Shown here: positions 19,639 to 64,000 of the stretch, in pieces
How positions within the stretch are numbered: position 1 is the stretch's first letter
How the letters are laid out: each line of letters begins with the position of its first letter
NCBI GenBank assembly: GCA_964020155.1
Contig: OZ026556.1
Span: 4,370,001-4,434,000 of the forward strand
From: Chondrilla cf. caribensis
Taxonomy: Eukaryota; Porifera; Demospongiae; Chondrillida; Chondrillidae
Length of the DNA: 64,000 nucleotides
Direction of reading: 5' to 3'
The notes under the pieces: generated by a model
Database searches by the model: none
What the model saw: only the letters and a program-made list of their open reading frames with translations
What the model was told of the DNA's origin: nothing
Made by a program: the position numbers and the translations under genes

Positions 19639-22600
19639 ATGTACAGTGTCTTTGTTCTCTGGTTACTGCTCACTAATGCTTCTACAGGTTTGTTTCTCCC
19701 TGTGATGTATTTAGGTTTATTTGTTGTAAAGCTTAGGGGAGATTAGGGACTAGGGATTTCTCGTTAAGGTGTACAAACAAACATATAGTGCATATATCTG
19801 TGGCTACATCCGTGACTACTGCTGCTAGTGTTGTCCGGGGTGTACGGTACAGCGTGACTTGTCTCTAGCTGTTATGGTGTTATGCACAGCGGTGATGAAA
19901 GGGGTACCTTTGAGTAACTCGCCTAGTACATTTCAGACTGAAAATAGATTCATTTTGCTGCATAAAGATTTAAAGGTATCTTGTCCCTACATACCTATCT
20001 CCCTTAGCCCACATGTACATACGTACTTTCACAACACATCATTTATGTACATGTGTACTAATGTGATATTCTTGTGTTGCATATGAATGAATGTAAGTCC
20101 TTCTACTGCCTCAACAACAAATACGACAACTATTTCCCAGGGACATGAGTATCATTTGTCGACTAATAGGTTGTTATACTGTCTCTACTACCTCTTTTCC
20201 TAGGAAGAAGTGCTGTTCCATCAGCTATGACCCTGTTATCATCTGTTGAACTGTCATATTCGAGTGGAACATCACCATCTGGACAATCCTTGTCTGTTGG
20301 ACCAACATTGTCTACTAACTCGTCATCATCGTATATCGAACCAACATTGTTTGCTAACTTGTCATCATCGTACATGGAACCAACATTGTCTGCTAACTTG
20401 TCATCATCGTACATCGAACCAACATTGTCTGCTAACACGTCATCATCGTACATCGAACCAACATTGTCTGCTAACTCGTCATCATCGTACATCGAACCAA
20501 CATTGTCTGCTAACTCGTCATCATCGTACATCGAACCAACATTGTCCGCTAACTCGTCATCATCGTACATCGAACCAACATTGTCTGCTAACTCGTCATC
20601 ATCGTACATCGAACCAACATTGTCTGCTAACTCGTCATCATCGTACATCGAACCAACATTGTCTGCTAACTCGTCATCATCGTACATCGAACCAACATTG
20701 TCTACTAACTCGTCATCATCGTACATCGAACCAACATTGTCTACTAACTCGTCATCATCGTACATCGAACCAACATTGTCTGCTAACTCGTCATCATCGT
20801 ACGTCGAACCAACATTGTTTGCTAACTCGTCATCATCGTACGTCGAACCAACATTGTTTGCTAACTCGTCATCATTGTACATCGAACCAACATTGTCCAC
20901 TAACTCGTCATCATCGTACGTCGAACCAACATTGTTTGCTAACTCGTCATCATCGTACATCGAACCAACATTGTTTGCTAACTCGTCATCATCGTACATC
21001 GAACCAACATTGTCCACTAACTCGTCATCATCGTACATCGAACCAACATTGTCTGCTAACTCGTCATTATCTGTTGAGATGTCATCGTCTGTTGAACGAA
21101 CATTGTCTGTTAAGCCATCATCATTGTCTTTATCTAGTGGAACATTAGCATCTGTTCAACCATCATTATCACTTGTCGGGCAGTCATCTGCTCTTGAGTC
21201 ACAATTTCTTAAGCCATCATTTTCTATTGAGCCATCATTTTCTATTGAGCCATCATTGTCTGTTGAGCCATCATTGTCTGTTGAGCCATCATTTTCTATT
21301 GAGCCATCATTGTCTGTTGAGCCATCATTTTCTATTGAGCCATCATTGTCTGTTGAGCCATCATTTTCTATTGAGCCATCGTCGACTGTTGAGCCATCAT
21401 TGTCTGTTGAGCCATCATTTTCTATTGAGCCATCGTCGTCTGTTGAGCCATCATTTTCTATTGAGCCATCGTCGTCTGTTGAGCCATCATTGTCTGTTGA
21501 GCCATCATCATCTGTGAAACTGACATTATCTGTTAATCAGTTATCATCCTTTCTGCTACCATCATCTGTTGAGATGGCATTATTGACATTATCGTCATCA
21601 TTGTCTGCCAGACCTCCATCATCTGTTGAACCATCATCATCTGTTGAACCATCATCATCTGTTGAGCCATTATCATCTGCCGAGTCTTTTTCACCTGTTG
21701 CTGTTTCACTGTCCAGCGGACTTTTTTCATCTTTTGTGCTGTCCTCCCCTGCTAAACCATCATTACCAGTTGGACCACCCTCATCTGTTGGACCATTATC
21801 TTCTGTCGGACCATCATCTGTTGGTTCAACATTGTCTGCCACGCTATCCTCAACTATTGGAGCATCATCATCTGTTGGGCCATCACCAGTCCCATCTTCA
21901 CTTCCCCAAACATCAGCGATACAGTCAGTCTCCATCACAACCAGCTCTTTGTCCACAACCTCAATGTATCCGGAAACATCTTCTGTACCATTGCTCACTA
22001 CCACTTCTTCAGCACTCACATCCTCTGTGCTGCCCATGACTCCATCATGTGGTCCAATCCCTGATTCCACACCACTATCTCAGCCAGTATGCCCTGGGAC
22101 CACTGCCACTAGCGGACTGAATGTGATTGTCCTCCAGTCTGAGGAATACCAGTTAAAGCACTTCACTGAAGTTACCGAGGAGCAATGCTTTACAGTTTGT
22201 TGCAGCGATGACGATTGCTATTCCTTCACCCGGTCTCTGACCTCCAACGAATGTTGGTTCCACAGAAAGCATCCACTAACAGCTGTCCAATCCAGCGAGC
22301 ACCACACCACATTCTACATGGTCAGGGACAGTCCCGGTCCTTATCTGGACACCTGGGTATACAGCGGAGAAGGATGTACATCTCTACCTAGCTACTCCAG
22401 CTATTCTTTGGATACGTGCATTCCATACAGAGGACTGGACTATCAGGAGCACTCCTATCAGGTGTTCCAATTGGACTGCTATACAGATTCCAGTTTCACA
22501 TTACGTCATTTGGTGTGGTACGAGGCACCTGGGTGTACTGTCCCCAGAAATCAGTGGTCGTTGCCAAATGTGAACGTCAGTGTGAATTCGAGTAGTTGCT

Positions 22601-23307
22601 ATGGAAACGTAAGGTTCTGGTCAGTAAAGGACCAACCTCGAGACATTCCAGTAGAAGCTGTCACCGAAGTGGACAGTTTCATCCCCACCTATGTCAACTA
22701 TGTGAAGTACAGCTCCTGTTCTTCAAGCAACGTCATCAGTCGAGTATCCTACAAGACAGGTGTCTGTTATAGTGAGGACGGAGACAGTTTCATGTACGAG
22801 CAGACTACCAGTAACCCATCATTTGGGTACCAGATGAAGGTTAGGTGGTGGAGTGGGACAAGAAGCTGTTCCGGAAGTCCCTCTCAAATGTTTGATGTTG
22901 TGTGGGGATGTCAAATGACGTCAGTACTCACTGGTGTCTTCTCGTTCACAGACAGTGCTCTGTTTGCAATTCCCGGGCAGTCTATATCAGTCACACCCAC
23001 TACTACATCAACCCCGCCCACATATCCGCCTCCATCTGCAGAAGACCAATCCTCCACTATCATTGCAGTCGGTGTGTCTGTGCCTATTGTAATCATTGTG
23101 GTTGTCGTGCTGGCAGTGGTAGCGATTGTTGCTATGGTGATGTTCAGAGGGAAGAAAGTGAAATCCATCAGATCACCTGACAACCTCACCAACTTTCCGG
23201 AGTGTAAATTGGACATGTTTGGCTATGGAGGGGAGCCCAATACGGTGACTATACGTAACCCCCTTAACACCCATGATGCTGGGAATATTGAGAGTGGTTG
23301 GAATTAG
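19639..23307 (+). CDS. Array gene A: short mucin-like type I membrane protein
   Basis: Exon 1 (19639-19687) encodes the signal peptide MYSVFVLWLLLTNAST. Exon 2 (20204-23307) follows after a phase-1 intron with a CTTTTCCTAG acceptor. The product is 1050 aa. It has no N-terminal module array. After the signal come about 19.5 copies of a 13-residue Ser-rich unit (SSSSYIEPTLSAN), then about 17 six-residue units (PSFSIE/PSLSVE), then more Ser/Pro/Val-rich stalk likely to be O-glycosylated. One membrane-proximal Cys module follows (22090-22911: EEQCFTVCCSDDDCYSF, EAPGC, VVWGC). A transmembrane helix lies at about 23052-23144 (IIAVGVSVPIVIIVVVVLAV). The tail carries CKLDMF and TIRNPL. I do not recognise the family. 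The Cys pattern CxxxCC....C.SF......C resembles PAN/apple domains. It could be a shortened receptor, secreted-like mucin scaffold or array relic, but the frame is intact. Confidence 0.8.
20302..21069 (+). repeat. 39-bp coding minisatellite (gene A stalk)
   Basis: About 19.5 copies of 39 bp encoding SSSSYIEPTLSAN, with variants YVE/YME, LFAN and LSTN. Because 39 is a multiple of three, other frames on both strands also stay open. Confidence 0.95.
21214..21519 (+). repeat. 18-bp coding minisatellite (gene A stalk)
   Basis: About 17 copies of 18 bp encoding PSFSIE, PSLSVE or PSSSVE in irregular alternation. Confidence 0.92.
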
Positions 23308-25373: not shown

Positions 25374-28300
25374 ATGTACAGTGTCTTTGTTCTCTGGTTA
25401 CTGCTCGCTAATGCTTCTACAGGTTTGTTTCTCCCTGTGATGTATTTAGGTTTATTTGTTGTAAAGCTTAGGGAAGATTAGGGACTAGGCATTTCTTGTT
25501 AAGGTGTACGAACAAACAGATAGTGCATAAATCTGTGGCTACATCCGTGACTACTGCTGCTTGTGTTGTCCGGGGTGTACGGTACGGCGTGACTTGTCTC
25601 TAGCTGTTATGGTGTTATAGGCCTATACTCTGCGGGCCGGGGAAGAAAGGTGTTGTAGCTACCTTGGAGTATCTTGGAAAGGTGAAACCTTTGAGTATCT
25701 TGCTTAGAACATTTCAGACTGAATATAGATTCACTACCGCATTAAGATCTCTTTCCAGCACACGTTGTTATAGTGCGTGAATCTACACTAACTTTCGCGC
25801 TCCATACGTACGTGGATTTTGCCATTATGGCCGTCCAAGAGAAAATCTTTGAAAAAATCTTAAGGATTTCTTTCTTTTCTATGAACGACGGTGGCAATTT
25901 CTTCGGCCACTACCTTTAGATGATATTCCCACTCCTTCCTACAATACGTGTGTGTGTTAAAGGTAAACGGGGACTTTTGCGTTCGTTCGTTTTGATTCGA
26001 TTTGATTTTGATTCACGAACTTTGACAATGTGTAACTCGATTATTAAATTAAATGTATACATGCATGTAAATATGCGTACAGTATAAGTATTATTGAAGT
26101 TGCATATCTTCTATGGTACCAACGAAGGATACTCTGTTATATGTGTGTATATCTATACAAAAACGTAGGTGAAGCTGCTTGTACAAGTACAGATGCCAAA
26201 ACGAGTTATGTCTCAAGCACATACAGTATTCAGACATTATCTGGCATGACCAAGGATGACTGTGTTGAAGCATGCTGCAGTAATACCAACTGCTATGCCG
26301 TGTTGATCTACAGGAGCAGTGGGACCTGCTACTTGAGAAGTACCTTCCCGTCTAGTGCAGTATCATCGTCTTCATCTTACTACCTTTACTACCTGGTCCG
26401 AGATTCCGTTTCTAATTATTTGGATGTTCGAAAGTATGGAAACAGCGACTGTTCTGGTAGTGTGACCACATATCGTAGCTATGCCATTGATTCCTGTGTG
26501 CCCTATCTAGAGCTGGCCTACACCGAGCATGCCTACCACTTGTATGAGTTGGAATCCTCCACCAGTTCATCTGACTTCACCGTCCGTCACTTAGTGTGGT
26601 TTGAAGCTCCAGGCTGTACTGCTGCGGAGAATGAATGGACCACACCAGACATCAACGAAACCCAGGGAAGTTCCGATTGCTACGACTATTATCGTAATTA
26701 CGAAGTTGGCAGTACTCCAAGAGATATTCCAGTGACTGGTGTGACCACTGAAGACAACTACCAACCACAGTATGTGATATGGAGGAAGTATGCGAATACC
26801 TGCGATGAAGGTCCACCATCGAGAGTATCCTACAGTGTTGGACAATGCCACGAGGAGGAGACTCTGAGAGACAGTTTCAAGTTTGAGAGTACAGGAACCC
26901 ATCCGACAGAAGGATATCAGATGGAGGTGAGCTGGTGGGACTCATCCACTACTTGTGGCGGCTCTCCAAGTTCCCAATTCAACATTACTTGGGGATGTCG
27001 TTCTACTTATCCCGGAAGTGGATACTTCACATTCAGCTCCACTTCACTGTCATCCTCCTGTTCAGCTACTACCACAACAGGTGTATCACAGTCTGTGAGT
27101 ACATCGTACAGTATAACATCATATTCGTACACAAGTTGGGATTCCTGTTTTAGCTCATGTTGCAGCAGATCAGACTGTTATGCCTTCATGCTGAGTTCCT
27201 CAAGATGCTACATTCTTCGGCAGTTTTCATCCAGTGTAACATCTTCCAGTACTACCTACACCCTCTACTACATGGTTCGCGATGCAAAGAGCAAACCTGG
27301 TGCATTCCTGGATACTCGCGTGTACAACAGTGAAGGTTGTGGAGGATCAGTGACAGACTACATCAGTTACCCCATTGAATCGTGCGTCCCCTACAAGTAC
27401 CTCGCCTACCACAACAATGCATATCAAATGTTCCAAGTAGATTCGTACACCAGCACTAGAAGCTTTGTTCTTCGTCACTTGGTGTGGTTCGAAGCTCCCG
27501 GATGTACTGCACCAGAGAGTGATTGGGACACTCCAGACATCAACACGACTCGTAACAGCGACTCATGCTACAAGAACTACACATTCTACGAACTGAAGCA
27601 TGCTCCGAGAGACATTCCAATAACGGCTGTATCAACCCAAGACAACTACGAACCTCAGTATGTGATATGGAGGAAGTATGCCGATACATGCAGTGGAGGT
27701 CCACCTAGAAGGGTATCCTACAGTGTTGGACAATGCCACGAGGAGGAGACTCTGAGAGACAGTTTCAAGTTTGAGAGTACAGGAACCCATCCGGCAGAAG
27801 GATATCAGATGGAGGTGAGCTGGTGGGACTCATCCACTACTTGTGGCGGCTCTCCAAGTTCCCAATTCAACATTACTTGGGGATGTCATTCTACTTATCC
27901 CGGAAGTGGATACTTCACATTCAGCTCCACTTCACTGTCATCCACCTGTTCAGCTACTACCACAACGGGTGTATCACAGTCTGTGAGTACATCGTACAGT
28001 ATAACATCATATTCGTACACAAGTTGGGATTCCTGTTTCAGCTCATGTTGCAGCAGATCAGACTGTTATGCCTTCATGCTGAGTTCCTCCAGATGCTACA
28101 TTCTTCGGCAGTTTTCATCCAGTGTAACATCTTCCAGTACTACCTACACCCTCTACTACATGGTTCGTGACGGTAAGAGCAAACCTGGTGCATTCCTGGA
28201 TACTCGTGTGTACAACAGTGAAGGTTGTGGAGGATCAGTGATAGACTACATCAGTTACCCCATTGAATCGTGCGTCCCCTACAAGTACCTCGCCTACCAC

Positions 28301-31300
28301 AACAATGCATATCAAATGTTCCAAGTAGATTTGTACACCAGCACTAGAAGCTTTGTTCTTCGTCACTTGGTGTGGTTCGAAGCTCCCGGATGTACTGCAC
28401 CAGAGAGTGATTGGGACACTCCAGACATCAACACGACTCGTAACAGCGACTCATGCTACAAGAACTACACATTCTACGAACTGAAGCATGCTCCGAGAGA
28501 CATTCCAATAACGGCTGTATCAACCCAAGACAACTACGAACCTCAGTATGTGATATGGAGGAAGTATGCCGATACATGCAGTGGAGGTCCACCTAGAAGG
28601 GTATCCTACAGTGTTGGACAATGCCACGAGGAGGAGACTCTGAGAGACAGTTTCAAGTTTGAGAGTACAGGAACCCATCCGGCAGAAGGATATCAGATGG
28701 AGGTGAGCTGGTGGGACTCATCCACTACTTGTGGCGGCTCTCCGAGTTCCCAATTCAACATTACTTGGGGATGTCGTTCTACTTATCCCGGAAGTGGATA
28801 CTTCACATTCAGCTCCACTTCACTGTCATCCACCTGTTCAGCTACTACCACAACGGGTGTATCACAGTCTGTGAGTACATCGTACAGTATAACATCATAT
28901 TCGTACACAAGTTGGGATTCCTGTTTTAGCTCATGTTGCAGCAGATCAGACTGTTATGCCTTCATGCTGAGTTCCTCCAGATGCTACATTCTTCGGCAGT
29001 TTTCATCCAGTGCAACATCTTCCAGTACTACCTACACCCTCTACTACATGGTTCGCGATGCAAAGAGCAAACCTGGTGCATTCCTGGATACTCGCGTGTA
29101 CAACAGTGAAGGTTGTGGAGGATCAGTGATAGACTACATCAGTTACCCCATTGAATCGTGCGTCCCCTACAAGTACCTCGCCTACCACAACAATGCATAT
29201 CAAATGTTCCAAGTAGATTCGTACACCAGCACTAGAAACTTTGTTCTTCGTCACTTGGTGTGGTTCGAAGCTCCCGGATGTACTGCACCAGAGAGTGATT
29301 GGGACACTCCAGACATCAACATGACTCGTAACAGCGACTCATGCTACAAGAACTACACATTCTACGAACTGAAGCATGCTCCGAGAGACATTCCAATAAC
29401 GGCTGTATCAACCCAAGACAACTACGAACCTCAGTATGTGATATGGAGGAAGTATGCCGATACATGCAGTGGAGGTCCACCTAAACGAGTATCCTACAGT
29501 GTTGGACAATGCCACGAGGAGGAGACTCTGAGAGACAGTTTCAAGTTTGAGAGTACAGGAACCCATCCGGCAGAAGGATATCAGATGGAGGTGAGCTGGT
29601 GGGACTCATCCACTACTTGTGGCGGCTCTCCAAGTTCCCAATTCAACATTACTTGGGGATGTCGTTCTACTAATCCAGGAAGTGGATACTTCACATTCAG
29701 CTCCACTTCACTGTCATCCTCCTGTTCAGCTACTACCACAACGGGTGTATCACAGTCTGTGAGTACATCGTACAGTATAACATCATATTCGTACACAAGT
29801 TGGGATTCCTGTTTTAGCTCATGTTGCAGCAGATCAGACTGTTATGCCTTCATGCTGAGTTCCTCAAGATGCTACATTCTTCGGCAGTTTTCATCCAGTG
29901 CAACATCTTCCAGTACTACCTACACCCTCTACTACATGGTTCGTGACGGTAAGAGCAAACCTGGTGCATTCCTGGATACTCGTGTGTACAACAGTGAAGG
30001 GTGTGGAGGATCAGTGACAGACTACATCAGTTACCCCATTGAATCATGCGTCCCCTACAAGTACCTCGCCTACCACAACAATGCCTATCAAATGTTCCGT
30101 ATAGATTCGTACACCAGCACTAGAAGCTTTGTTCTTCGTCACTTGGTGTGGTTCGAAGCTCCCGGATGTACTGCACCAGAGAGTGATTGGGACACTCCAG
30201 ACATCAACACAACTCGTAACAGCGACTCATGCTACAAGAACTACACATTCTACGAACTGAAGCATGCTCCGAGAGACATTCCAATAACGGCTGTATCAAC
30301 CCAAGACAACTACGAACCTCAGTATGTGATATGGAGGAAGTATGGTGAAACATGCAGTGGAGGTCCACCTAAAAGGGTATCCTACAATGTTTCACAGTGC
30401 CACAAGGAGGAGACTCTGAGAGACAGTTTCAAGTTTGAGAGTACAGGAACCCATCCGGCAGAAGGATATCAGATGGAGGTGAGCTGGTGGGACTCATCCA
30501 CTACTTGTGATGGCTCTCCAAGTTCCCAATTCAACATCACTTGGGGATGTCGTTCTACTTATCCCGGAAGTGGATACTTCACATTCAGCTCCACTTCACT
30601 GTCATCCTCCTGTTCAGCTACTACCACAACGGGTGTATCACAGTCTGTTAGTACATCATACAGTATAACATCATATTCGTACACAAGTTGGGATTCCTGT
30701 TTCAGCTCATGTTGCAGCAGATCAGACTGTTATGCCTTCATGCTGAGTTCCTCAAGATGCTACATTCTTCGGCAGTTTTCATCCAGTGCAACATCTTCCA
30801 GTACTACCTACACCCTCTACTACATGGTTCGTGATGGTAAGAGCAAACCTGGTGCATTCCTGGATACTCGTGTGTACAACAGTGAAGGGTGTGGAGGATC
30901 AGTGACAGACTACATCAGTTACCCCATTGAATCGTGCGTCCCCTACAAGTACCTCGCCTACCACAACAATGCATATCAAATGTTCCAAGTAGATTTGTAC
31001 ACCAGCACTAGAAGCTTTGTTCTTCGTCACTTGGTGTGGTTCGAAGCTCCCGGATGTACTGCACCAGAGAGTGATTGGGACACTCCAGACATCAACACAA
31101 CTCGTAACAGCGACTCATGCTACAAGAACTACACATTCTACGAACTGAAGCATGCTCCGAGAGACATTCCAATAACGGCTGTATCAACCCAGGACAACTA
31201 CGAACCTCAGTATGTGATATGGAGGAAGTATGGTGAAACATGCAGTGGAGGTCCACCTAAAAGGGTATCCTACAATGTTTCACAGTGCCACAAGGAGGAG

Positions 31301-34300
31301 ACTCTGAGAGACAGTTTCAAGTTTGAGAGTACAGGAACCCATCCGGCAGAAGGATATCAGATGGAGGTGAGCTGGTGGGACTCATCCACTACTTGTGGCG
31401 GCTCTCCAAGTTCCCAATTCAACATTACTTGGGGATGTCGTTCCACTAATCCAGGAAGTGGATACTTCACATTCAGCTCCACTGGACTGTCATCCACCTG
31501 TTCAGCTACGTCCACAACGGGTGTATTTCAGTATGTTAGTATATCAACATACAGCTTTCGAACATATTCTTACACAACTTGGGATTCCTGTTACAGTACA
31601 TGTTGCAGCTGGTCAAACTGCCATGCTTTCATGCTGAGTTCCTCAAGATGCTACGTTCTATACTACTTTTCACCCAGTGTTCCAACCTCCAGTACTACCT
31701 ACACCCTCTACTACATGGTTCGTGATGGTAAGAGCAAACCTGGTGTATTTCTGGATACTCGCGTGTACAACAGTGAAGGTTGTGGAGGATCAGTGACAGA
31801 CTACATCAGTTACCCCATTGAATCATGCATCCCCTACAAGTACCTCGCCTACCACGAACATGCCTATCAAATGTTCCGTGTAGATTCGTACACCAGCACT
31901 AGAAGCTTTGTTCTTCGTCACTTGGTGTGGTTCGAAGCTCCCGGATGTACTGCACCAGAGAGTTATTGGGACACTCCAGACATCAACACAACTCGTAACA
32001 GCGACTCATGTTACAAGAACTACACATTCTATGAACTGAGGCATGCTCCGAGAGACATTCCAATAACGGCTATATCAACCCAAGACAACTACGAACCTCA
32101 GTATGTGATATGGAGGAAGTATGGTGAAACATGCAGTGGAGGTCCACCATCGAGAGTAGCCTACAATGTTTCACAGTGCCACGAGGAGGAGACTCTGAGA
32201 GACAGTTTCAAGTTTGAGAGTACAGGAACCCATCCGACAGAAGGATATCAGATGGAAGTGAGCTGGTGGGACTCATCCACTACTTGTGGCGGCTCTCCAA
32301 GTTCCCAATTCAACATCACTTGGGGATGTCGTTCTACTAATCCAGGAAGTGGATACTTCACATTCAGCTCCACTTCACTGTCATCCACTTGTTCAGCTAC
32401 TACCACAACGGGTGTATTTCAGTATGTTAGTATATCAACATACAGCTTTCGAACATATTCTTACACAACTTGGGATTCCTGTTACAGTACATGTTGCAGC
32501 TGGTCAAACTGCCATGCTTTCATGCTGAGTTCCTCAAGATGTTATGTTCTACTATACTTTTCACCCAGTGTTCCAACCTCCAGTACTACCTACACCCTCT
32601 ACTACATGGTTCGTGACGGTAAGAGCAAACCTGGTGTATTTCTGGATACTCGTGTGTACAACAGTGAAGGGTGTGGAGGATCAGTGACAGACTACATCAG
32701 TTACCCCATTGAATCCTGCGTCCCCTACAAGTACCTCGCCTACCATGAACATGCCTATCAAATGTTCCAAGTAGATTCGTACACCAGCACTAGAAGCTTT
32801 GTTCTTCGTCACTTGGTGTGGTTCGAAGCTCCCGGATGTACTGCACCAGAGAGTGATTGGGACACTCCAGACATCAACATGACTCGTAACAGCGACTCAT
32901 GCTACAAGAACTACACATTCTACGAACTGAGGCATGCTCCGAGAGACATTCCAATAACGGCTGTATCAACCCAAGACAACTACGAGCCTCAGTATGTGAT
33001 ATGGAGGAAGTATGGTGAAACATGCAGTGGAGGTCCACCTAAAAGAGTATCCTACAGTGTTGGACAATGCCATGAGGAGGAGACTCTGAGAGACAGTTTC
33101 AAGTTTGAGAGTACAGGAACCCATCCGACAGAAGGATATCAGATGGAGGTGAGCTGGTGGGACTCATCCACTACTTGTGGCGGCTCTCCAAGTTCCCAAT
33201 TCAACATTACTTGGGGATGTCGTTCCACTAATCCAGGAAGAGGAGACTTCACATTCAGCTCTGCTGGACTGTCATCCACCTGTTCAGCTACTACCACAAC
33301 GGGTGTATTTCAGTATGTTAGTATATCAACATACAGCTTTCGAACATATTCTTACACAACTTGGGATTCCTGTTACAGTACATGTTGCAGCTGGTCAAAC
33401 TGCCATGCTTTCATGCTGAGTTCCTCAAGATGCTATGTTCTAAACTACTTTTCACCCAGTGTTCCAATCACCAGTACTACCTACACCCTCTACTACATGG
33501 TTCGCGATGGTAGTGCTACTCCCAGGGGATTTGTGGATACTCGTATCTACAGCAGCAGTTCTTGCAGTGGATCGATCAGCTCATACACCAGTCTTCCTCT
33601 GGGTCATTGCACCCGGTACACCTACCTGGAGTATACTGATCACACCTATCAGATGCTGTATTTGGATTCTTATACTGACCGAAGTAATTATGTTCTACGT
33701 CATCTTGTATGGTATGACGCTCCAGGATGTACTGTTAATGAGAGTCAATGGGACACTGCAGATATCAACACAACACGTCGAAGTGGAGACTGCTTTCAAG
33801 ATTACAACTTTTGGACAGTGAAATACGCTCCATACAGTAGGAGTGTGGGGTCAGTGGTGACAGGAGCTGATAACTTTGTCCCCTCGTATGTGAACCACAG
33901 GAAGTACAGCACTCCTTGCTCCTCAACAGTGACAGAACAGGTCTCTTATCAGCTTGGATACTGCTACGAAGGTAATGGTGGGAGCTTTACCATCCAGCGA
34001 ACAGTCAATCATCCTACCTCCGGTTACCAGATGAAGGTTAGAATATGGAGCGGGTCGACAGTTTGTTCAGGAGATCCTTCAGAAATCTTCAATCTGGTGT
34101 GGGGATGTCGTGTGGCAACATCATTCAGTGGTAGTTTCACTTTCACAAGTAGTGCATCCTACACTGTTCCTCAAGGGTTTGAGTTTTCAACTTCCACTTC
34201 CTCGATGACCTCGACGATGTCTATGTCATCTTCCATCCCTCCAACTACATCTGTGATGTTCAGTTCATCATCCATCTCTTCATTTTCTCCGTTGCTATCA

Positions 34301-47300: not shown

Positions 47301-48402
47301 CGATGACGATTGCTATTCCTTCACCCGCTCTCTGACCTCCAACGAATGTTGGTTCCACAGAAAGCATCCACTAACAGCTGTCCAATCCAGCGAGCACCAC
47401 ACCACATTCTACATGGTCAGGGACAGTCCCGGTCCTTATCTGGACACCTGGGTGTACAGCGGAGAAGGATGTACATCTCTACCTAGCTACACCAGCTATT
47501 CTTTGGATACGTGCATTCCATACAGAGGACTGGACTATCAGGAGCACTCCCATCAGGTGTTCCAACTGGACTGCTATACAGATTCCGGTTTCACATTACG
47601 TCATTTGGTGTGGTACGAGGCACCTGGGTGTACTGTCCCCAGAAATCAGTGGTCGTTGCCAAATGTGAACGTCAGTGTGAATTCGAGTAGTTGCTATGGA
47701 AACATAAGGTTCTGGTCAGTAAAGGACCAACCTCGAGACATTCCAGTAGAAGCTGTCACCGAAGTGGACAGTTTCATCCCCACCTATGTCAACTATGTGA
47801 AGTACAGCTCCTGTTCTTCAAGCAACGTCATCAGTCGAGTATCCTACAAGACAGGTGTCTGTTATAGTGAGGACAGAGACAGTTTCGTTTACAAGCAGAC
47901 TACCAGTAACCCATCTTTTGGGTACCAGATGAAGGTTAGGTGGTGGAGTGGGACAAGAAGCTGTTCCGGAAGTCCCTCTCAAATGTTTGATGTTGTGTGG
48001 GGATGTCAAATGACGTCAGTACTCACTGGTGTCTTCTCGTTCACAGACAGTGCTCTGTTTGCAATTCCCGGGCAGTCTATATCTGTCAAACCCACTACTA
48101 CATCAACCCCGCCCACATACCCGCCTCCATCTGCAGAAGACCAATCCTCCACTATCATTGCAGTCGGTGTGTCTGTGCCTATTGTAATCATTGTGGTTGT
48201 CGTACTGGCAGTGGTAGTGATTGTTGCTATGGCGATGTTCAGGGTGAAAAAGGATGAGTTTACTAACTCAGATGACAACCATGTCAACTTTCCGGAGTGT
48301 AAACTTGACATGTTTGGTGATGAGGAAGAGTCCAATACAATGACTATACGTAACCCTCTTAGTACCCTTGATGCCGAGAAGATAGAGCATGGTAGGGATT
48401 AG
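38382..48402 (+). CDS. Array gene C: giant multi-module type I membrane receptor, 3061 aa
   Basis: Exon 1 (38382-38430) encodes MYFFVVVSLLLSLATT, a signal peptide. Exon 2 (39266-48402) opens after TGATCCTAG and restores GEAACTSTDA, matching genes B and D. Eight N-terminal modules end at 40095, 40983, 41871, 42759, 43647, 44538, 45429 and 46317. Module 1 is the distinct first type, 2-5 are GVSQSV type, and 6-8 are GVFQYV type with GSATPRGYLDTRIY in the last. A stalk rich in STSMPTSSSST repeats (46318-47184), the membrane-proximal module (47185-48006), a transmembrane helix (about 48147-48239) and a tail with CKLDMF and MTIRNPL follow. All modules keep the Cys framework. It is one module shorter than B and D. 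Function unknown. An intact frame over more than 9 kb argues for selection. Confidence 0.85.
39266..46317 (+). repeat. Eight-module coding tandem array in gene C
   Basis: 888/891-bp periods as in gene B. The block around 43240-44130 recurs almost unchanged at 44131-45020, indicating a very recent one-module duplication or conversion. Confidence 0.95.
46430..46690 (+). repeat. Ser/Thr-rich stalk repeats (gene C)
   Basis: Irregular repeats encoding STSMPTSSSST and PSSTSS. Gene D has a related but differently arranged version at about 58020-58260. Confidence 0.8.
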
Positions 48403-49288: not shown

Positions 49289-52200
49289 ATGGTCGTCATG
49301 TACTTCCTCGCAGCTGTTTTGCTGCTTTCCTCGGCTACGTCAGGTTAGTTTCTGTAGTTGTTAATGGGAAAATGTATTGCAAGCGTGCGTATTGTCTAGT
49401 CTTCTGGTACGTAGTCATTGTCGAAACACTACCATAGTCGAGAAATGCCATATCAAACGAACCACGTACAAGGACCTCCATAGGCTTTTGTGAGTGCAAT
49501 ATTGCGCGATTCAACTATCTTTCTTAATATTCCTACTTATTTGTCTGTTTTAAGCTTTCTTTCTGTCATATACCGGGCACCTTAATAGCAGCTTCACCCC
49601 TCGCAGCTGAAGGTGTGTCCCTATGATAAGGATATGAGGCAAAGAGAAATTGCATAAGCGCAGTTGTATGCAATCATATAATAGATATTGTATACTCAGG
49701 TTACGTGAGTATACAATATCTATGATACAATTAAGATGATGTACTGTACTTTTGATCCTGCATTCCCACCGACCAATACACGGGAGAGATATGCAACCAG
49801 GTAGACAAGTTAATCTACAGCTTGTCTCATCTGATTATCTGTATTGAAGTAACTTCAAGTTTCACAAGTTTCTTTAATTTGCTCACAGTAATACGAACAT
49901 ACCATTAATATGATTATGTGATACTAGATTCCCTTCTTGTGTTACGGTTATGTTTATTACTGATCCTAGGTGAAGCTGCCTGTACAAGTACAGATGCAGA
50001 AGCGAGTTATGTCTCAACCTCGTACAATATTCAGACATTATCTGGCATGACCAGGGATGCCTGTGTTGAAGCATGCTGCAGTAATACCAACTGCTATGCC
50101 GTGTTGATCTTAAGGAGCAGTGGGACCTGCTACCTGAAAAGAACCTTTTCTTCTAGTGCAGTATCATCGTCTTCATCCTATGACCTTCACTACCTGGTCC
50201 GAGATTCCGTTTCTAATTATTTGGATGTTCGAAAGTATGGAAACAGCGACTGTTCTGGTAGTGTGACCACATATCGTAGCTATGCCATTGATTCCTGTGT
50301 GCCCTATCTAGAGCTGGCGTACACCGAACATGCCTACCACTTGTATGAGTTGGAATCCTCCACCAGTTCATCTGACTTCACTGTCCGTCACTTAGTGTGG
50401 TTTGAAGCTCCAGGCTGTACTGCTGCGGAGAATGAATGGACCACACCAGACATCAACGAAACCCAGGGAAGTTCGAATTGCTACGACTATTATCGTAATG
50501 ACGAAGTTAGCAGTACTCCAAGAGATATTCCAGTGACTGGTGTGACCACTGAAGACAACTACCAACCTCAGTATGTGATATGGAGGAAGTATGCTAGCAC
50601 CTGTGATGAAGGTCCACCATGGAGAGTATCCTACAGTGTTGGACAATGCCACGAGGAGGAGACTCTGAGAGACAGTTTCAAGTTTGAGAGTACAGGAACC
50701 CATCCGACAGAAGGATATCAGATGGAGGTGAGCTGGTGGGACTCATCCACTACTTGTGTCGGCTCTCCAAGTTCCCGATTCAATATTACTTGGGGGTGTC
50801 GTTCTACAAATCCAGGAAGTGGATACTTCACATTCAGCTCCACTTCACTGTCATCCACCTGTTCAGCTACTACCACAACGGGTGTATCACAGTCTGTGAG
50901 TACATCGTACAGTATAACATCATATTCGTACACAAGTTGGGATTCCTGTTTCAGCTCATGTTGCAGCAGATCAGACTGTTATGCCTTCATGCTGAGTTCC
51001 TCCAGATGCTACATTCTTCGGCAGTTTTCATCCAGTGCAACATCTTCCAGTACTACCTACACCCTCTACTACATGGTTCGTGATGGTAAGAGCAAACCTG
51101 GTGCATTCCTGGATACTCGCGTGTACAACAGTGAAGGGTGTGGAGGATCAGTGACAGACTACATCAGTTACCCCATTGAATCATGCGTCCCCTACAAGTA
51201 CCTCGCCTACCACAACAATGCCTATCAAATGTTCCGTATAGATTCGTACACCAGCACTAGAAGCTTTGTTCTTCGTCACTTGGTGTGGTTCGAAGCTCCC
51301 GGATGTACTGCACCAGAGAGTGATTGGGACACTCCAGACATCAACATGACTCGTAACAGCAACTCATGTTACAAGAACTACACATTCTACGAACTGAAGC
51401 ATGCTCCGAGAGACATTCCAATAACGGCTGTATCAACCCAAGACAACTACGAACCTCAGTATGTGATATGGAGGAAGTATGCCGATACATGTAGTAGAGG
51501 TCCACCTAAAAGGGTATCCTACAGTGTTGGACAATGCCACGAGGAGGAGACTCTGAGAGACAGTTTCAAGTTTGAGAGTACAGGAACCCATCCGGCAGAA
51601 GGATATCAGATGGAGGTGAGCTGGTGGGACTCATCCACTACTTGTGGTGGCTCACCAAGTTCCCAATTCAACATTACTTGGGGATGTCGTACTACCTATC
51701 CAGGTAGTGGATACTTCACGTTCAGCTCCACTTCACTGTCATCCACCTGTTCAGCTACTACCACAACGGGTGTATCACAGTCTGTGAGTACATCGTACAG
51801 TATAACATCATATTCGTACACAAGTTGGGATTCCTGTTTCAGCTCATGTTGCAGCAGATCAGACTGTTATGCCTTCATGCTGAGTTCCTCCAGATGCTAC
51901 ATTCTTCGGCAGTTTTCATCCAGTGCAACATCTTCCAGTACTACCTACACCCTTTACTACATGGTTCGCGATGCAAAGAGCAAACCTGGTGCATTCCTGG
52001 ATACTCGTGTGTACAACAGTGAAGGTTGTGGAGGATCAGTGACAGACTACATCAGTTACCCCATTGAATCGTGCGTCCCCTACAAGTACCTCGCCTACCA
52101 CAACAATGCCTATCAAATGTTCCAAGTAGATTCGTACACCAGCACTAGAAACTTTGTTCTTCGTCACTTGGTGTGGTTCGAAGCTCCCGGATGTACTGCA

Positions 52201-55200
52201 CCAGAGAGTGATTGGGACACTCCAGACATCAACACAACTCGTAACAGCGACTCATGCTACAAGAACTACACATTCTACGAACTGAAGCATGCTCCGAGAG
52301 ACATTCCAATAACGGCTGTATCAACCCAAGACAACTACGAACCTCAGTATGTGATATGGAGGAAGTATGCCGATACATGCAGTGCAGGACCACCTAAAAG
52401 GGTATCCTACAGTGTTGGACAATGCCACGAGGAGGAGACTCTGAGAGACAGTTTCAAGTTTGAGAGTACAGGAACCCATCCAGCAGAAGGATATCAGATG
52501 GAGGTGAGCTGGTGGGACTCATCCACTACTTGTATCGGCTCTCCAAGTTCCCAATTCAACATTACTTGGGGATGTCGTTCTACTAATCCAGGAAGTGGAT
52601 ACTTCACATTCAGCTCCACTTCACTGTCATCCACCTGTTCAGCTACTACCACAACGGGTGTATCACAGTCTGTGAGTACATCGTACAGTATAACATCATA
52701 TTCGTACACAAGTTGGGACTCCTGTTTCAGCTCATGTTGCAGCAGATCAAACTGTTATGCCTTCATGCTGAGTTCCTCCAGATGCTACATTCTTCGGCAG
52801 TTTTCATCCAGTGCAACATCTTCCAGTACTACCTACACCCTCTACTACATGGTTCGCGATGCAAAGAGCAAACCTGGTGCATTCCTGGATACTCGCGTGT
52901 ACAACAGTGAAGGTTGTGGAGGATCAGTGACAGACTACATCAGTTACCCCATTGAATCGTGCGTCCCCTACAAGTACCTCGCCTACCACAACAATGCCTA
53001 TCAAATGTTCCAAGTAGATTCGTACACCAGCACTAGAAGCTTTGTTCTTCGTCACTTGGTGTGGTTCGAAGCTCCCGGATGTACTGCACCAGAGAGTGAT
53101 TGGGACACTCCAGACATCAACACGACTCGTAACAGCAACTCGTGCTACAAGAACTACACATTCTACGAACTGAAGCATGCTCCGAGAGACATTCCAATAA
53201 CGGCTGTATCAACCCAAGACAACTACGAACCTCAGTATGTGATATGGAGGAAGTATGCCAATACATGCAGTGGAGGTCCACCTAAAAGGGTATCCTACAG
53301 TGTTGGACAGTGCCACGAGGAGGAGACTCTGAGAGACAGTTTCAAGTTTGAGAGTACAGGAACCCATCCAGCAGAAGGATATCAGATGGAGGTGAGCTGG
53401 TGGGACTCATCCACTACTTGTGGTGGCTCTCCAAGTTCCCAATTCAACATTACTTGGGGTTGTCGTTCTACCTATCCAGGAAGTGGATACTTCACATTCA
53501 GCTCCACTTCACTGTCATCCACCTGTTCAGCTACTACCACAACAGGTGTATCACAGTCTGTGAGTACATCGTACAGTATAACATCATATTCGTACACAAG
53601 TTGGGACTCCTGTTTCAGCTCATGTTGCAGCAGATCAAACTGTTATGCCTTCATGCTGAGTTCCTCGAGATGCTACATTCTTCGGCAGTTTTCATCCAGT
53701 GCAACATCTTCCAGTACTACCTACACCCTCTACTACATGGTTCGCGATGCAAAGAGCAAACCTGGTGCATTCCTGGATACTCGCGTGTACAACAGTGAAG
53801 GTTGTGGAGGATCAGTGACAGACTACATCAGTTACCCCATTGAATCGTGCGTCCCCTACAAGTACCTCGCCTACCACAACAATGCCTATCAAATGTTCCA
53901 AGTAGATTCGTACACCAGCACTAGAAGCTTTGTTCTTCGTCACTTGGTGTGGTTCGAAGCTCCCGGATGTACTGCACCAGAGAGTGATTGGGACACTCCA
54001 GACATCAACACGACTCGTAACAGCAACTCGTGCTACAAGAACTACACATTCTACGAACTGAAGCATGCTCCGAGAGACATTCCAATAACGGCTGTATCAA
54101 CCCAAGACAACTACGAACCTCAGTATGTGATATGGAGGAAGTATGCCAATACATGCAGTGGAGGTCCACCTAAAAGGGTATCCTACAGTGTTGGACAGTG
54201 CCACGAGGAGGAGACTCTGAGAGACAGTTTCAAGTTTGAGAGTACAGGAACCCATCCAGCAGAAGGATATCAGATGGAGGTGAGCTGGTGGGACTCATCC
54301 ACTACTTGTGGTGGCTCTCCAAGTTCCCAATTCAACATTACTTGGGGATGTCGTTCTACTAATCCAGGAAGTGGATACTTCACATTCAGCTCCACTTCAC
54401 TGTCATCCACCTGTTCAGCTACTACCACAACAGGTGTATCACAGTCTGTGAGTACATCGTACAGTATAACATCATATTCGTACACAAGTTGGGACTCCTG
54501 TTTCAGCTCATGTTGCAGCAGATCAAACTGTTATGCCTTCATGCTGAGTTCCTCGAGATGCTACATTCTTCGGCAGTTTTCATCCAGTGCAACATCTTCC
54601 AGTACTACCTACACCCTCTACTACATGGTTCGCGATGCAAAGAGCAAACCTGGTGCATTCCTGGATACTCGCGTGTACAACAGTGAAGGTTGTGGAGGAT
54701 CAGTGACAGACTACATCAGTTACCCCATTGAATCGTGCGTCCCCTACAAGTACCTCGCCTACCACAACAATGCCTATCAAATGTTCCAAGTAGATTCGTA
54801 CACCAGCACTAGAAGCTTTGTTCTTCGTCACTTGGTGTGGTCCGAAGCTCCCGGATGTACTGCACCAGAGAGTGATTGGGACACTCCAGACATCAACACG
54901 ACTCGTAACAGCAACTCATGCTACAAGAACTACACATTCTACGAACTGAAGCATGCTCCGAGAGACATTCCAATAACGGCTGTATCAACCCAAGACAACT
55001 ACGAACCTCAGTATGTGATATGGAGGAAGTATGGTGAAACATGCAGTGGAGGTCCACCTAAAAGGGTATCCTACAATGTTTCACAGTGCCATAAGGAGGA
55101 GACTCTGAGAGACAGTTTCAAGTTTGAGAGTACAGGAACCCATCCGGCAGAAGGATATCAGATGGAGGTGAGCTGGTGGGACTCATCCACTACTTGTGTC

Positions 55201-58200
55201 GGCTCTCCAAGTTCCCAATTCAACATTACTTGGGGATGTCGTTCTACTAATCCAGGAAGTGGATACTTCACATTCAGCTCCACTGGGCTATCATCCACTT
55301 GTTCAGCTACGTCCACAACGGGTGTATTTCAGTATGTTAGTATATCAACATACAGCTTTCGAACATATTCTTACACAACTTGGGATTCCTGTTACAGTAT
55401 ATGTTGCAGCTGGTCAAACTGCCATGCTTTCATGCTGAGTTCCTCAAGATGCTACGTTCTATACTACTTTTCACCCAGTGTTCCAACCTCCAGTACTACC
55501 TACACCCTCTACTACATGGTTCGTGATGGTAAGAGCAAACCTGGTGCATTCCTGGATACTCGCGTGTACAACAGTGAAGGGTGTGGAGGATCAGTGACAG
55601 ACTACATCAGTTACCCCATTGAATCATGCGTCCCCTACAAGTACCTCGCCTACCACAACAATGCCTATCAAATGTTCCGTGTAGATTCGTACACCAGCAC
55701 TAGAAGCTTTGTTCTTCGTCACTTGGTGTGGTTCGAAGCTCCCGGATGTACTGCACCAGAGAGTGATTGGGACACTCCAGACATCAACACGACTCGTAAC
55801 AGCAACTCATGCTACAAGAACTACACATTCTATGAACTGAAGCATGCTCCGAGAGACATTCCAATAACGGCTGTATCAACCCAAGACAACTACGAACCTC
55901 AGTATGTGATATGGAGAAAGTATGGTGAAACATGCAGTGGAGGTCCACCTAAAAGAGTATCCTACAATGTTTCACAGTGCCATAAGGAGGAGACTCTGAG
56001 AGACAGTTTCAAGTTTGAGAGTACAGGAACCCATCCGGCAGAAGGATATCAGATGGAGGTGAGCTGGTGGAACTCATCCACTACTTGTGGGGGCTCTCCA
56101 AGTTCCCAATTCAACATTACTTGGGGATGTCGTTCTACTAATCCAGGAAGTGGATACTTCACATTCAGCTCCACTGGGCTATCATCCACTTGTTCAGCTA
56201 CTACCACAACGGGTGTATTTCAGTATGTTAGTATATCAACATACAGCATTCGAACCTATTCTTACACAACTTGGGATTCCTGTTACAGTATATGTTGCAG
56301 CTGGTCAAACTGCCATGCTTTCATGCTGAGTTCCTCAAGATGCTACATTCTATACTACTTTTCACCCAGTGTTCCAACCTCCAGTACTACCTACACTCTC
56401 TACTACATGGTTCGCGATGGTAAGAGCAAACCTGGTGTATTTCTGGATACTCGCGTGTACAACAGTGAAGGGTGTGGAGGATCAGTGACAGACTACATCA
56501 GTTACCCCATTGAATCATGCATCCCCTACAAGTACCTCGCCTACCACAACAATGCCTATCAAATGTTCCGTGTAGATTCGTACACCAGCACTAGAAGCTT
56601 TGTTCTTCGTCACTTGGTGTGGTTCGAAGCTCCCGGATGTACTGCACCAGAGAGTGATTGGGACACTCCAGACATCAACACGACTCGTAACAGCGACTCA
56701 TGCTACAAGAACTACACATTCTACGAACTGAGGCATGCTCCGAGAGACATTCCAATAACGGCTGTATCAACCCAAGACAACTACGAACCTCAGTATGTGA
56801 TATGGAGGAAGTATGCCGATACATGCAGTGGAGGTCCACCTAGAAGAGTATCCTACAGTGTTGGACAATGCCACGAGGAGGAGACTCTGAGAGACAGTTT
56901 CAAGTTTGAGAGTACAGGAACCCATCCGGCAGAAGGATATCAGATGGAGGTGAGCTGGTGGGACTCATCCACTACTTGTGTCGGCTCTCCAAGTTCCCAA
57001 TTCAACATCACTTGGGGATGTCGTTCCACTAATCCAGGAAGAGGATACTTCACATTTAGCTCTGCTGGGCTATCATCCACCTGTTCAGCTACGTCCACAA
57101 CGGGTGTATTTCAGTATGTTAGTATATCAACATACAGCTTTCGAACATATTCTTACACAACTTGGGATTCCTGTTACAGTATATGTTGCAGCTGGTCAAA
57201 CTGCCATGCTTTCATGCTGAGTTCCTCAAGATGCTATGTTCTACTATACTTTTCACCCAGTGTTCCAATCACCAGTACTACCTACACCCTCTACTACATG
57301 GTTCGCGATGGTAGTGCTACTCCCAGGGGATTTGTGGATACTCGTATCTACAGCAGCAGTTCCTGCAGTGGATCGATCAGCTCATACACCAGTCTTCCTC
57401 TGGGTCATTGCACCCGGTACACCTACCTGGAGTATACTGATCACACCTATCAGATGCTGTATTTGGATTCTTATACAGACCAAAATAATTATGTTCTTCG
57501 TCATCTTGTATGGTATGAGGCTCCAGGATGTACTGTTAACGAGAGTCAGTGGAATACTGCAGATATCAACACAACACGCCAAAGTGGAGATTGCTTTCAA
57601 GATTACAACTTTTGGACAGTGAACTACGCTCCATACAGTAGGAATGTGGGGTCAGTGGTGACAGGAGCTGATAACTTTGTCCCCTCGTATGTGAACCACA
57701 GGAAGTACAGCACTCCTTGCTCCTCAACAGTGACAGAACAGGTCTCTTATCAGCTTGGATACTGCTACGAAGGTAATGGTGGGAGCTTTACCATCCAGCG
57801 AACAGTCAATCATCCTACCTCCGGTTACCAGATGAAGGTTAGAATATGGAGTGGGTCGACAGTTTGTTCAGGAGATCCTTCAGAAATCTTCAATCTGGTG
57901 TGGGGATGTCGTGTGGCAACATCATTCAGTGGTAGTTTCACTTTCACAAGTAGTGCATCCTACACTGTTCCTCAAGGGTTTGAGTTTTCAACTTCCACTT
58001 CCTCGATGACCTCAACAATGTCTTCATCGTCCACCTCTTCGTCCTCTACTTCATCGTCCACCTCTATGCCTACTAGTTCTTCATCTACCTCTTCGTCTTC
58101 TACTTTATTGTCAACCTCTATGCCTACTAGTTCGTCATCTACCTCTTCGTCCTCTACTTCATCGTCCACCTCTATGCCTACTAGTTCATCATCCACCTCT

Positions 58201-59967
58201 CCATCCTCTACTTCATCGTCAACCTCTGTGCCTACTAGTTCATCATCCTTCTCTTTGTCTTCTACATTATCACCATCCTCTATGTCCACTACTTCCTCAT
58301 CCACTCCTTTGTCTTCTAGTTCGTCAACTACCTCTTTTTCATTGTCCATTTCTTCGTCTCCTCTGTTGTCTACCTCATTATTATCATCTGCTGAAGTAAC
58401 ATCTACTATTGAGGCATCATCACCTGTTCAGCCGTCTTCATCTGTCCCACCATCATCATCTGTTGGGCAATCCCCATCTGTCACATCATCGTCTGTTCGG
58501 CCGTCTTCATCCTTTAGGCCATCATCATCTGTTGGGCCATCACCAGTCCCATCTTCACTTCCCCAAACATCAGTGATACAGTCGGTCTCCACCACAACCA
58601 GCTCTTTGTCCACAACCTCAATGTATCCGGAAGCATCTTCTGTACCATTGCTCACTACCACTTCTTCAGCGCCCACATCCTCTGCGCTGCCCATGACTCC
58701 ATCATGTGGTCCAATCCCTGATTCCACACCACTATCTCAGCCAGTATGCCCTGGGACCACTGCCACCAGTGGATCGAATGTGATTGTCCTCCAGTCTGAC
58801 GAATACCAGTTGAAGCACCTCACTGGAGTTACCGAGGAGCAATGCTTTACAGTTTGTTGCAGCGATGACGATTGCTATTCCTTCACCCGCTCTCTGACCT
58901 CCAACGAATGTTGGTTCCACAGAAAGCATCCACCAACAGCTGTCCAATCCAGTGAGCACCACACCACATTCTACATGGTCAGGGACAGTCCCGGTCCTTA
59001 TCTGGACACCTGGGTATACAGCGGAGAAGGATGTACATCTCTACCTAGCTACACCAGCTATTCTTTGGATACGTGCATTCCATACAGAGGACTGGACTAT
59101 CAGGAGCACTCCTATCAGGTGTTCCAATTGGACTGCTATACAGATTCTGGTTTCACATTACGTCATTTGGTGTGGTACGAGGCACCTGGGTGTACTGTCC
59201 CAAAAAATCAGTGGTCATTGCCAAATGTGAACGTCAGTGTGAATTCGAGTAGTTGCTATGGAAACATAAGGTTCTGGTCAGTAAAGGACCAACCTCGAGA
59301 CATTCCAATAGAAGCTGTCACCGAAGTGGACAGTTTCATCCCCACCTATGTCAACTATGTGAAGTACAGCTCCTGTTCTTCAAGCAACGTCATCAGTCGA
59401 GTATCCTACAAGACAGGTGTCTGTTATAGTGAGGACGGAGACAGTTTCATGTACGAGCAGACTACCAGTAACCCATCTTTTGGGTACCAGATGAAGGTTA
59501 GGTGGTGGAGTGGGACAAGAAGCTGTACCGGAAGCCCCTCTCAAATGTTTGATGTTGTGTGGGGATGTCAAATGATGTCAGTGCTCACTGGTGTCTTCTC
59601 GTTCACAGACAGTGCTCTGTTTGCAATTCCCGGGCAGTCTATATCAGTCAAACCCACTACTACATCAACCCCGCCCACATACCCACCTCCATCTGCAGAA
59701 GACCAATCCTCCACTATCATTGCAGTCGGCGTGTCTGTGCCTATTGTAATCATTGTGGTTGTCGTACTGGCAGTGGTAGCGATTGTTGCTATGGTGATGT
59801 TCAAAGGGAAAAGAAGTCAAACTTTGAATTTAACCAATGACCTACCAGCCCATCCAAAGGAGAAATGGGATATGTTTGATGATTTTGAGGAGCACAATGT
59901 AATGACCATACGCAACCCTTTGAGCAATATTGATTTCTCGAAGATGGATGGGGAAGATGATGACTGA
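49289..59967 (+). CDS. Array gene D: giant multi-module type I membrane receptor, 3350 aa
   Basis: Exon 1 (49289-49343) encodes MVVMYFLAAVLLLSSATS, a signal peptide. Exon 2 (49970-59967) is a single 10-kb coding exon joined in phase 1 (GEAACTSTDA). Nine modules end at 50799, 51687, 52575, 53463, 54351, 55239, 56130, 57021 and 57909: one first-type module, five GVSQSV type, and three GVFQYV type with GSATPRGFVDTRIY in the last. The stalk (57910-58746) is made of STSMPTSSSST-like repeats. The membrane-proximal module is 58747-59568 and the transmembrane helix about 59709-59801. The tail is the most divergent of the four (KEKWDMF, MTIRNPL, acidic end GEDDD). Modules 4 and 5 are nearly identical, sharing the rare YANTC variant. 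An adhesion or recognition receptor is the leading guess. No enzyme motif is visible. Confidence 0.85.
49681..49723. other. Perfect 18-bp hairpin in gene D intron
   Basis: ATAGATATTGTATACTCA and its exact inverse complement are separated by the 7-nt loop GGTTACG. It lies in the only intron of gene D, between the signal-peptide exon and the giant exon. Confidence 0.85.
49970..57909 (+). repeat. Nine-module coding tandem array in gene D
   Basis: Same 888/891-bp periodicity and subtype order as in genes B and C. Modules 52576-53463 and 53464-54351 are close to identical. Confidence 0.95.
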
Positions 59968-63728: not shown

Positions 63729-63778
63729 GGTACACATGACCAGTACCGGATGTGCACGAAAGAACCGACCGAAGCCAA
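63729..63778 (+). promoter_or_regulatory. Gene E core promoter block
   Basis: Near-identical copy of the gene D promoter block with GGTACACATG at 63729-63738, 41 bp before the start codon. Confidence 0.5.
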
Positions 63779-64000
63779 ATGGTCGTCATGCACTTCCTCG
63801 CAGCTGTTTTGCTGCTTTCTTCGGCTACGTCAGGTTAGTTTGTGTAGTTGTTAATGGGAAAGTGTATTGCAAGCGTGCGTATTGTCAAGTTTTCTGGTAC
63901 GTAGTCATTGTCGAAACACTACCATAGTCGAGAAATGCCATATCAAACGAACCACGTACAAGGACCTTGGATAGGCTTTCGTGAGCGCATTGTTGCGCGA
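63779..64000 (+). CDS. Array gene E, first exon only (continues beyond window)
   Basis: Exon 1 (63779-63833) encodes MVVMHFLAAVLLLSSATS and ends in phase 1 before GTTAGT, one residue different from gene D exon 1. The following intron sequence also matches gene D intron 1. The giant second exon must lie to the right of the window, so the array has at least five members. Confidence 0.8.

Follow-up and report, generated by a model that had tools for sequence, protein, structure and literature searches.

A tandem array of giant mucin-stalked membrane proteins in a sponge, built from PAN-like domains and a likely distant relative of DUF3430

Introduction

Sponges feed on bacteria filtered from the water and also harbour symbionts, so that the way in which their cells distinguish between microbes is a standing question. 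Several described systems offer points of comparison for large sponge surface proteins. Sponge aggregation factors carry Calx-beta repeats as their hallmark, and transmembrane mucins of the MUC1/MUC3/MUC4 type combine a long Ser/Thr/Pro-rich (S/T/P) stalk, one helix and a short tail with differences in repeat number. PAN domains commonly bind proteins; in KIAA0319 the typical domain is PKD. Counting-factor-associated proteins concern aggregate size in Dictyostelium. Here we analyse a 64,000-nucleotide stretch of the genome of Chondrilla cf. caribensis (the window, C11:4370001-4434000; genome of 137.0 Mb in 37 contigs), which holds a tandem array of five genes, g1 to g5, for giant modular membrane proteins. 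Each module joins a PAN-like part, its first ~80 amino acids (aa), to a second part of ~210 aa with eight cysteines (domain 2), which is likely, though not proven, to be a divergent animal relative of DUF3430 (PF11912).

DUF3430 has been studied in Dictyostelium, where BadA, BadB and BadC were enriched together with bacteriolytic activity (PMC7886984). According to excerpts of that report, overexpression of BadA raised and its depletion lowered the bacteriolytic activity, and BadA was required for bactericidal activity in Dictyostelium (PMC7886984). The domain is listed there in dictyostelids, one dinoflagellate and one kinetoplastid protein, with no animal among the entries of the excerpt, and a beta-rich fold similar to beta-gamma-crystallin/MiAMP1 is offered as speculation (PMC7886984). 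DUF3430 is also mentioned in a paper on Dictyostelium DNMA.

Results

Five genes share one plan

The five genes lie head-to-tail on the plus strand of a 5.3 Mb contig (C11). Each consists of a signal exon, a phase-1 intron and one giant exon, as the original prediction had stated; the splice structure was predicted from the sequence, and the giant exon of g5 lies outside the window. A scan for exons ending in G|GT in phase 1 gave a signal-peptide exon with a phase-1 donor upstream of each gene. For g1 it gave one further candidate, and in g4 and g5 the exon could also begin at a later in-frame start. The inferred acceptors rejoin the frame as ...GEAAC in g2-g5 and as G-R-S-A-V in g1. From stop to stop, the frames span 20170-23307 in g1 (1045 aa), 26048-36730 in g2 (3560 aa), 39214-48402 in g3 (3062 aa) and 49909-59967 in g4 (3352 aa). 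The giant frame of g5 (2489 aa) lies just past the window end, and only the signal exon of this gene is inside. The features are as follows, in window positions unless marked C11.

19639-19687, plus strand: g1 exon 1, signal peptide MYSVFVLWLLLTNAST; donor CAG|GTTTGT, phase 1
20204-23307, plus strand: g1 giant exon; S/T/P stalk, C-terminal-type module (22090-22977), helix, tail
25374-25422, plus strand: g2 exon 1, signal peptide MYSVFVLWLLLANAST; phase-1 donor
26169-36730, plus strand: g2 giant exon; open frame of 3560 aa stop to stop
26180-34159, plus strand: the nine tandem modules of g2; first module at 26180-27058, those of the middle type at 27059-33280, last tandem type at 33281-34159
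26402-27058, plus strand: domain 2 of the first g2 module, as an example; it has 8 Cys, the motif [YF]xxxxC four times and a PF11912 match at E 0.0037, under the curated cut-off
34160-35512, plus strand: g2 stalk; ~460 aa, S/T/P 55%
35513-36400, plus strand: g2 C-terminal-type module
36482-36727, plus strand: g2 helix (by eye) and predicted cytosolic tail; conserved ...MF...EPNTVTIRNPL...
38382-38430, plus strand: g3 exon 1, signal peptide MYFFVVVSLLLSLATT; phase-1 donor
39266-48402, plus strand: g3 giant exon; 8 modules in tandem at 39277-46368, then the stalk, the C-terminal module at 47185-48072, helix and tail
49289-49343, plus strand: g4 exon 1, signal peptide MVVMYFLAAVLLLSSATS; phase-1 donor, second in-frame start at 49298
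49970-59967, plus strand: g4 giant exon; 9 modules in tandem at 49981-57960, then the stalk, the C-terminal module at 58747-59634, helix and tail
63779-63833, plus strand: g5 exon 1, signal peptide MVVMHFLAAVLLLSSATS; giant exon (6+1 modules) at C11:4434492-4441958

In g2-g5 the order is tandem modules of ~296 aa each, an S/T/P-rich stalk, a diverged last module, one helix and a short tail; g1 has no tandem modules and is made of stalk, last module, helix and tail only. Tandem and C-terminal modules number 0+1 in g1, 9+1 in g2, 8+1 in g3, 9+1 in g4 and 6+1 in g5. The stalk, last module, single membrane helix and short tail had been anticipated and were all recovered, the helix being identified by eye from the hydrophobic run. 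Together with six relatives from other assemblies (P0005-P0010, described below), g2-g5 make up ten multi-module giant proteins, whose stalks measure 256-512 aa with 53-76% S/T/P and which carry 17-31 N-glycosylation sequons per protein. The g1 stalk contains 39-bp and 18-bp tandem repeats. Its segment 20301-21071 holds ~20 near-identical 39-bp repeats (95% match), and the stalk can be read without stops in a second forward frame over 20231-21148 and, on the minus strand, over 20163-21155, as such repeats would lead one to expect.

The tails of g1-g5 and P0005-P0010 share the motif [VM]TIRNPL, and a smaller relative, P0004, carries MTIWNPL. By eye, the predicted cytosolic tails fall into two classes, g1-g3 and g4-g5; since the g4/g5 class resembles the tails of P0008 and P0010, the split seems older than the species from which these two come.

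Lengths of 1045-3560 codons, module matches with E values down to 2e-199 (to a non-self copy), ratios of nonsynonymous to synonymous divergence (dN/dS) of 0.13-0.49 and the presence of relatives elsewhere show that the frames are not due to chance. We regard the predicted anatomy of signal peptide, modules, stalk, helix and tail as firm.

Most of the modules found lie in the array

Three different queries searched against the whole genome each gave at least 41 module matches, 37 in the array and 4 on a second contig (C3); counts from these searches are lower bounds. All of the at least 41 matches were modules, and free-standing copies of domain 2 were not found in the genome searches. The C3 locus is probably one gene of two exons with two modules each, as judged from a phase-1 donor (ACAG|GTATGT) and an acceptor between two open frames. 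The gap between these frames would hardly accommodate another signal exon, whereas upstream of the locus lies one of several candidates for such an exon.

PAN_1 matches also occur at five places on contig C25 (e.g. L001:853-3144), within open frames of ~900 aa. These were rejected as relatives of the array; the one of the five that was read by eye is a secreted-looking protein with an inserted PAN-like stretch.

The first part of the module is PAN-like

As a whole protein, g2 exceeds the Pfam cut-offs of PAN_3 (39 vs 21.1 bits), KIAA0319_N (72.3 vs 27) and MANEC (42.8 vs 25.5), these scores being summed over repeats. P0005 and P0008 clear the same three cut-offs as whole proteins; P0010 clears PAN_3 and KIAA0319_N and stays under the cut-off of MANEC (24.3 vs 25.5 bits). 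With its one module, g1 is below the cut-off of PAN_1 (12 vs 21.4 bits), and so is the one single module with printed bits for the PAN-type families. Judged by these profiles, the first ~80 aa of each module are PAN/MANEC-like.

The original prediction had seen PAN/apple-type cysteine modules and had left their family to a profile search of one module against Pfam. The PAN assignment is borne out by the summed g2 scores and falls below cut-off in a single module. The larger second part of the module had been overlooked, and it returned only sub-threshold matches to PF11912.

Domain 2 weakly resembles PF11912

Seven modules were examined for the cysteines of domain 2: six have 8 Cys and one has 9, and the motif [YF]xxxxC occurs 3-4 times; all seven thus show the DUF3430 pattern of at least eight Cys and several Y/FxxxxC motifs. 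Seven Cys columns are invariant in 14 aligned domain-2 sequences, whereas the position of the eighth Cys is shifted in modules of the C-terminal type. The two halves of the domain look related: in hhalign they align with a score of 25.7, while the best of 200 column shuffles scored 19.5, although the program's own probability is only 30%; with fewer sequences the signal is weaker (score 23.4, probability 15%).

When domain 2 was scanned alone, PF11912 (CfaA_B_C, formerly DUF3430) was the most recurrent Pfam family. At E≤10 it matched 9 of 14 domain-2 sequences (best 0.0037), 2 of 5 and 5 of 8; these sets overlap, three of the eight being also among the 14. In the set of eight, the consensus matched at E 0.0049 and the first module of P0010 at E 0.0039, the latter colinear over nearly the whole domain (residues 1-198 on profile positions 23-198). 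No match was obtained with ten shuffled sequences that kept all Cys/Tyr/Phe/Trp positions, nor with six full shuffles of the ten made.

No significant match came from profiles of PDB sequences (lowest E 0.12 with the whole module and 0.83 with domain 2), NCBIfam gave only two weak single-member matches (0.065 and 0.62), and PHROGs gave none. Pfam matches to Arylesterase on modules and domain 2 were taken as chance, as were those to ECSCR (stalk-to-membrane end), RIFIN and FeoB_associated. Ig_GP210_15th is listed as precomputed for P0005 and P0009; its match in P0005 (E 1e-05, 25.9 vs 27 bits), in which no single stretch passes, probably adds up weak scores from the repeats and was discounted.

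The middle modules are homogenised and constrained

The middle modules of g2-g4 are 86-100% identical to each other. Identity to them drops to 64-67% for first modules, 52-59% for last tandem modules and 41-44% for C-terminal modules. The proposal of three genes with 8-9 near-identical modules stands for the counts (9, 8 and 9 in g2-g4), and the near-identity is restricted to the middle modules.

Within the genome the middle modules share 92.5% identity, compared with 82.9% against P0008/P0010. Because identity is higher within the genome than between species, we attribute this to concerted evolution. The first half of domain 2 behaves differently according to the class of module: against P0008/P0010 its identity is 92.4% in middle modules (240 pairs). 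The corresponding values are 77.0% for first and 77.5% for last tandem modules, from 8 pairs each, and 77.0% for C-terminal modules, from 10 pairs.

We compared modules within each class and calculated dN/dS as mean dN over mean dS, averaged over domains. The values range from 0.13 to 0.49 by domain and from 0.26 to 0.32 for whole modules; for middle modules they are 0.24-0.30 by domain. As means over domains rather than sites, they indicate purifying selection on average. An alignment of 24 middle modules (g2-g5) has 11 columns with at least three states, a gap being counted as a state. The diversifying selection and high allelic diversity of hypervariable allorecognition receptors were not seen in averaged dN/dS and in the comparison of two assemblies.

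Relatives are found in other assemblies

A protein search with g5 modules gave six giant relatives, P0005-P0010, of 2475-3578 aa; P0001-P0004 are four smaller matches from an earlier protein search. A protein search with region 630-1045 of g1 gave no match, P0001-P0010 all coming from later queries. P0006, P0007 and P0009, for which the longest contig has the same length (493,397 bp), match g2, g3 and g4 at 99.7, 99.4 and 99.5% outside indels. P0007 and P0009 are each short of exactly one 297-aa module, and also of 9 and 18 aa of stalk. We read these three as probable alleles or as a conspecific assembly, in which repeat collapse on one side could mimic the loss of a module. More distant are P0005, which shares 92.0% identity with g2, and P0010, which shares 76.7% with g5.

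Among viral contigs, 14 pattern matches included no relative, and phage records searched with one domain-2 sequence gave no match; both sets may omit records near the source genome. The family is not described in the titles and abstracts of the sponge literature on PAN/apple domains, allorecognition and surface mucins; the phrase PAN domain does not occur in nine of these papers, and PAN is not mentioned in the part consulted of a sponge grafting study (PMC5450542). No description of the family was found in the libraries and literature searched, but its parts are of familiar types, one of them the PAN-type domain and the other probably a distant relative of DUF3430.

Other features of the window and genome

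Upstream of the array, an exon on the minus strand (7142-7942) encodes a partial Forkhead domain (E 3.5e-11) and probably belongs to a transcription factor gene. An open frame at 11230-12390 (minus strand) has weak P-loop ATPase matches near its C-terminal end, all under cut-off. Tandem repeats outside the array have units of 41 bp (144-459) and 17 bp (4340-4607). Elsewhere in the genome, contig C37 (19,283 bp) is mitochondrial, with the order cox1, tRNA-Ser(UGA), tRNA-Cys and a frame that is presumably nad1; its cox1 reads TGA as Trp. This gene order fits demosponges and suggests that the genome is that of a demosponge.

Discussion

We infer, with a probability of about 0.4, that the array encodes multivalent, mucin-stalked surface receptors for one constant, probably microbial, ligand. 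The stalk would lift the rod of modules above the glycocalyx, and the repeated modules would bind one constant surface ligand, probably microbial, with high avidity, so that cells engaged in filter feeding or phagocytosis would carry a kind of flypaper; uptake or signalling might then follow through the tail. A constant ligand fits better than a variable one because the first half of domain 2 is highly conserved in middle modules, the dN/dS of these modules is low and 11 of their alignment columns are multi-state. The resemblance of domain 2 to PF11912, the family of BadA, shifts the weight from self/non-self recognition to microbes. Of the recognition or aggregation system proposed by the original prediction, recognition remains plausible, and its self/non-self form is disfavoured by the low module diversity and purifying selection.

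Several observations weigh against this proposal. All printed PF11912 scores are under the gathering cut-off (best 17.7 vs 28.6 bits, E 0.0037-0.0039), and no match was seen in 5 of 14, 3 of 5 and 3 of 8 domain-2 sequences. Whole modules matched PF11912 in only 3 of 21 cases (best E 0.017), against weak Arylesterase matches in 4 of 21; Arylesterase also appeared in 2 of 14 domain-2 rows (best E 0.055). Some PF11912 alignments cover half of the domain or are not colinear. The PF11912 profile searched against the sponge genome itself returned nothing at E≤1, controls of the same search being equally silent. The tail of the C3 gene differs from those of the array, and homogenised repeats would suit a structural polymer too. 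Furthermore, purified BadA alone failed to lyse bacteria and is thought to work in phagosomes, according to excerpts of the report (PMC7886984). A stronger version, in which a bacteriolytic domain of the Dictyostelium type was made into a giant membrane-tethered array serving as bacterial weapon or capture device, with module number varying between individuals, appears to us unlikely.

The proteins might instead be structural membrane mucins, long glycosylated polymers of a barrier or glycocalyx in which the modules are rigid spacers and their number sets the length. The stalk composition and sequon counts of all ten multi-module giants, the indels in module number and stalk length between near-identical copies and the homogenised repeats agree with this, as do the S/T/P-rich region and single helix expected of a transmembrane mucin. 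However, the first half of domain 2 in middle modules is under much stronger constraint than the remainder, for which a spacer would have no need. The tail is conserved, and neither SEA nor a similar cleavage domain nor any other mucin domain was matched in Pfam at E≤1 in g1, g2, P0005, P0008 and P0010; we hold this explanation to be somewhat unlikely. Homophilic adhesion or aggregation, with tandem modules zipping neighbouring sponge cells together, would suit the multivalent single-pass architecture and the protein-binding habit of PAN domains, and the Pfam name of PF11912 itself refers to counting-factor-associated proteins. It is nevertheless rather unlikely, as no cadherin, Ig or Calx-beta domain rises above the Pfam cut-off in the same five proteins, the one weak Ig-like (GP210) match, in P0005, lying just below it.

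If the array served polymorphic self/non-self recognition, module number or sequence would be the label of the individual. The tandem arrangement of the genes and the difference of exactly one module, with altered stalks, in two of the three near-identical pairs are what such labels would produce. But the pairs are 99.4-99.7% identical outside indels, repeat collapse in one assembly could imitate the indels, and the modules are homogenised and constrained, with dN/dS well below 1, which disfavours a variable label carried by module sequence; we consider this improbable. Near-identical repeats are also prone to mis-assembly, and an assembly artefact, a pseudogene array or a contaminant could be suspected. 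Open frames of up to 3560 codons, dN/dS of 0.13-0.49, full-length relatives in other assemblies and the position within a 5.3-Mb contig make this very improbable indeed.

If multivalent receptors for a constant microbial ligand are the right interpretation, a giant surface family joining PAN-like and BadA-like domains becomes a concrete and testable candidate for microbe discrimination in sponges. In addition, DUF3430, mainly described from dictyostelids in the portion of the report cited (PMC7886984), would be extended to animals. In any event, an array so homogenised, in which near-identical copies differ by whole modules, offers a clear case for the study of concerted evolution in surface proteins.

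The array proteins share features with several known systems and differ from each in others. The likeness to PAN_3, MANEC and KIAA0319_N proteins lies in the first ~80 aa of each module; in contrast to KIAA0319-type proteins, no PKD is among the hits, and the PAN part is paired with an eight-Cys domain in tandem. As large, repetitive, surface-associated sponge proteins they recall the aggregation factors, but Calx-beta repeats were not found at E≤1 in g1, g2, P0005, P0008 and P0010. With MUC1/MUC3/MUC4-type mucins they have in common the S/T/P-rich stalk, one helix, a short tail and differences in repeat number, whereas most of their mass resides in Cys-rich modules instead of mucin repeats and an SEA hit is lacking. 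Proteins of Phytophthora with a similar aromatic/Cys domain, compared by description only, often have a membrane helix as well, and differ by a cytosolic kinase domain that the array proteins lack (excerpts of PMC7886984). BadA and other DUF3430 proteins resemble domain 2 in length (~205-210 aa), in ~8 Cys, in aromatic-xxxx-Cys motifs and in sub-threshold profile matches, and the array proteins in having a signal peptide; BadA itself is a protein of ~25 kDa purified from fractions rich in lysosomal proteins (excerpts of PMC7886984). In the sponge array, by contrast, the putative relative of this domain scores below the cut-off and always follows a PAN-like domain; it occurs in 7-10 copies per protein in g2-g5, which have a mucin-like stalk and a membrane anchor.

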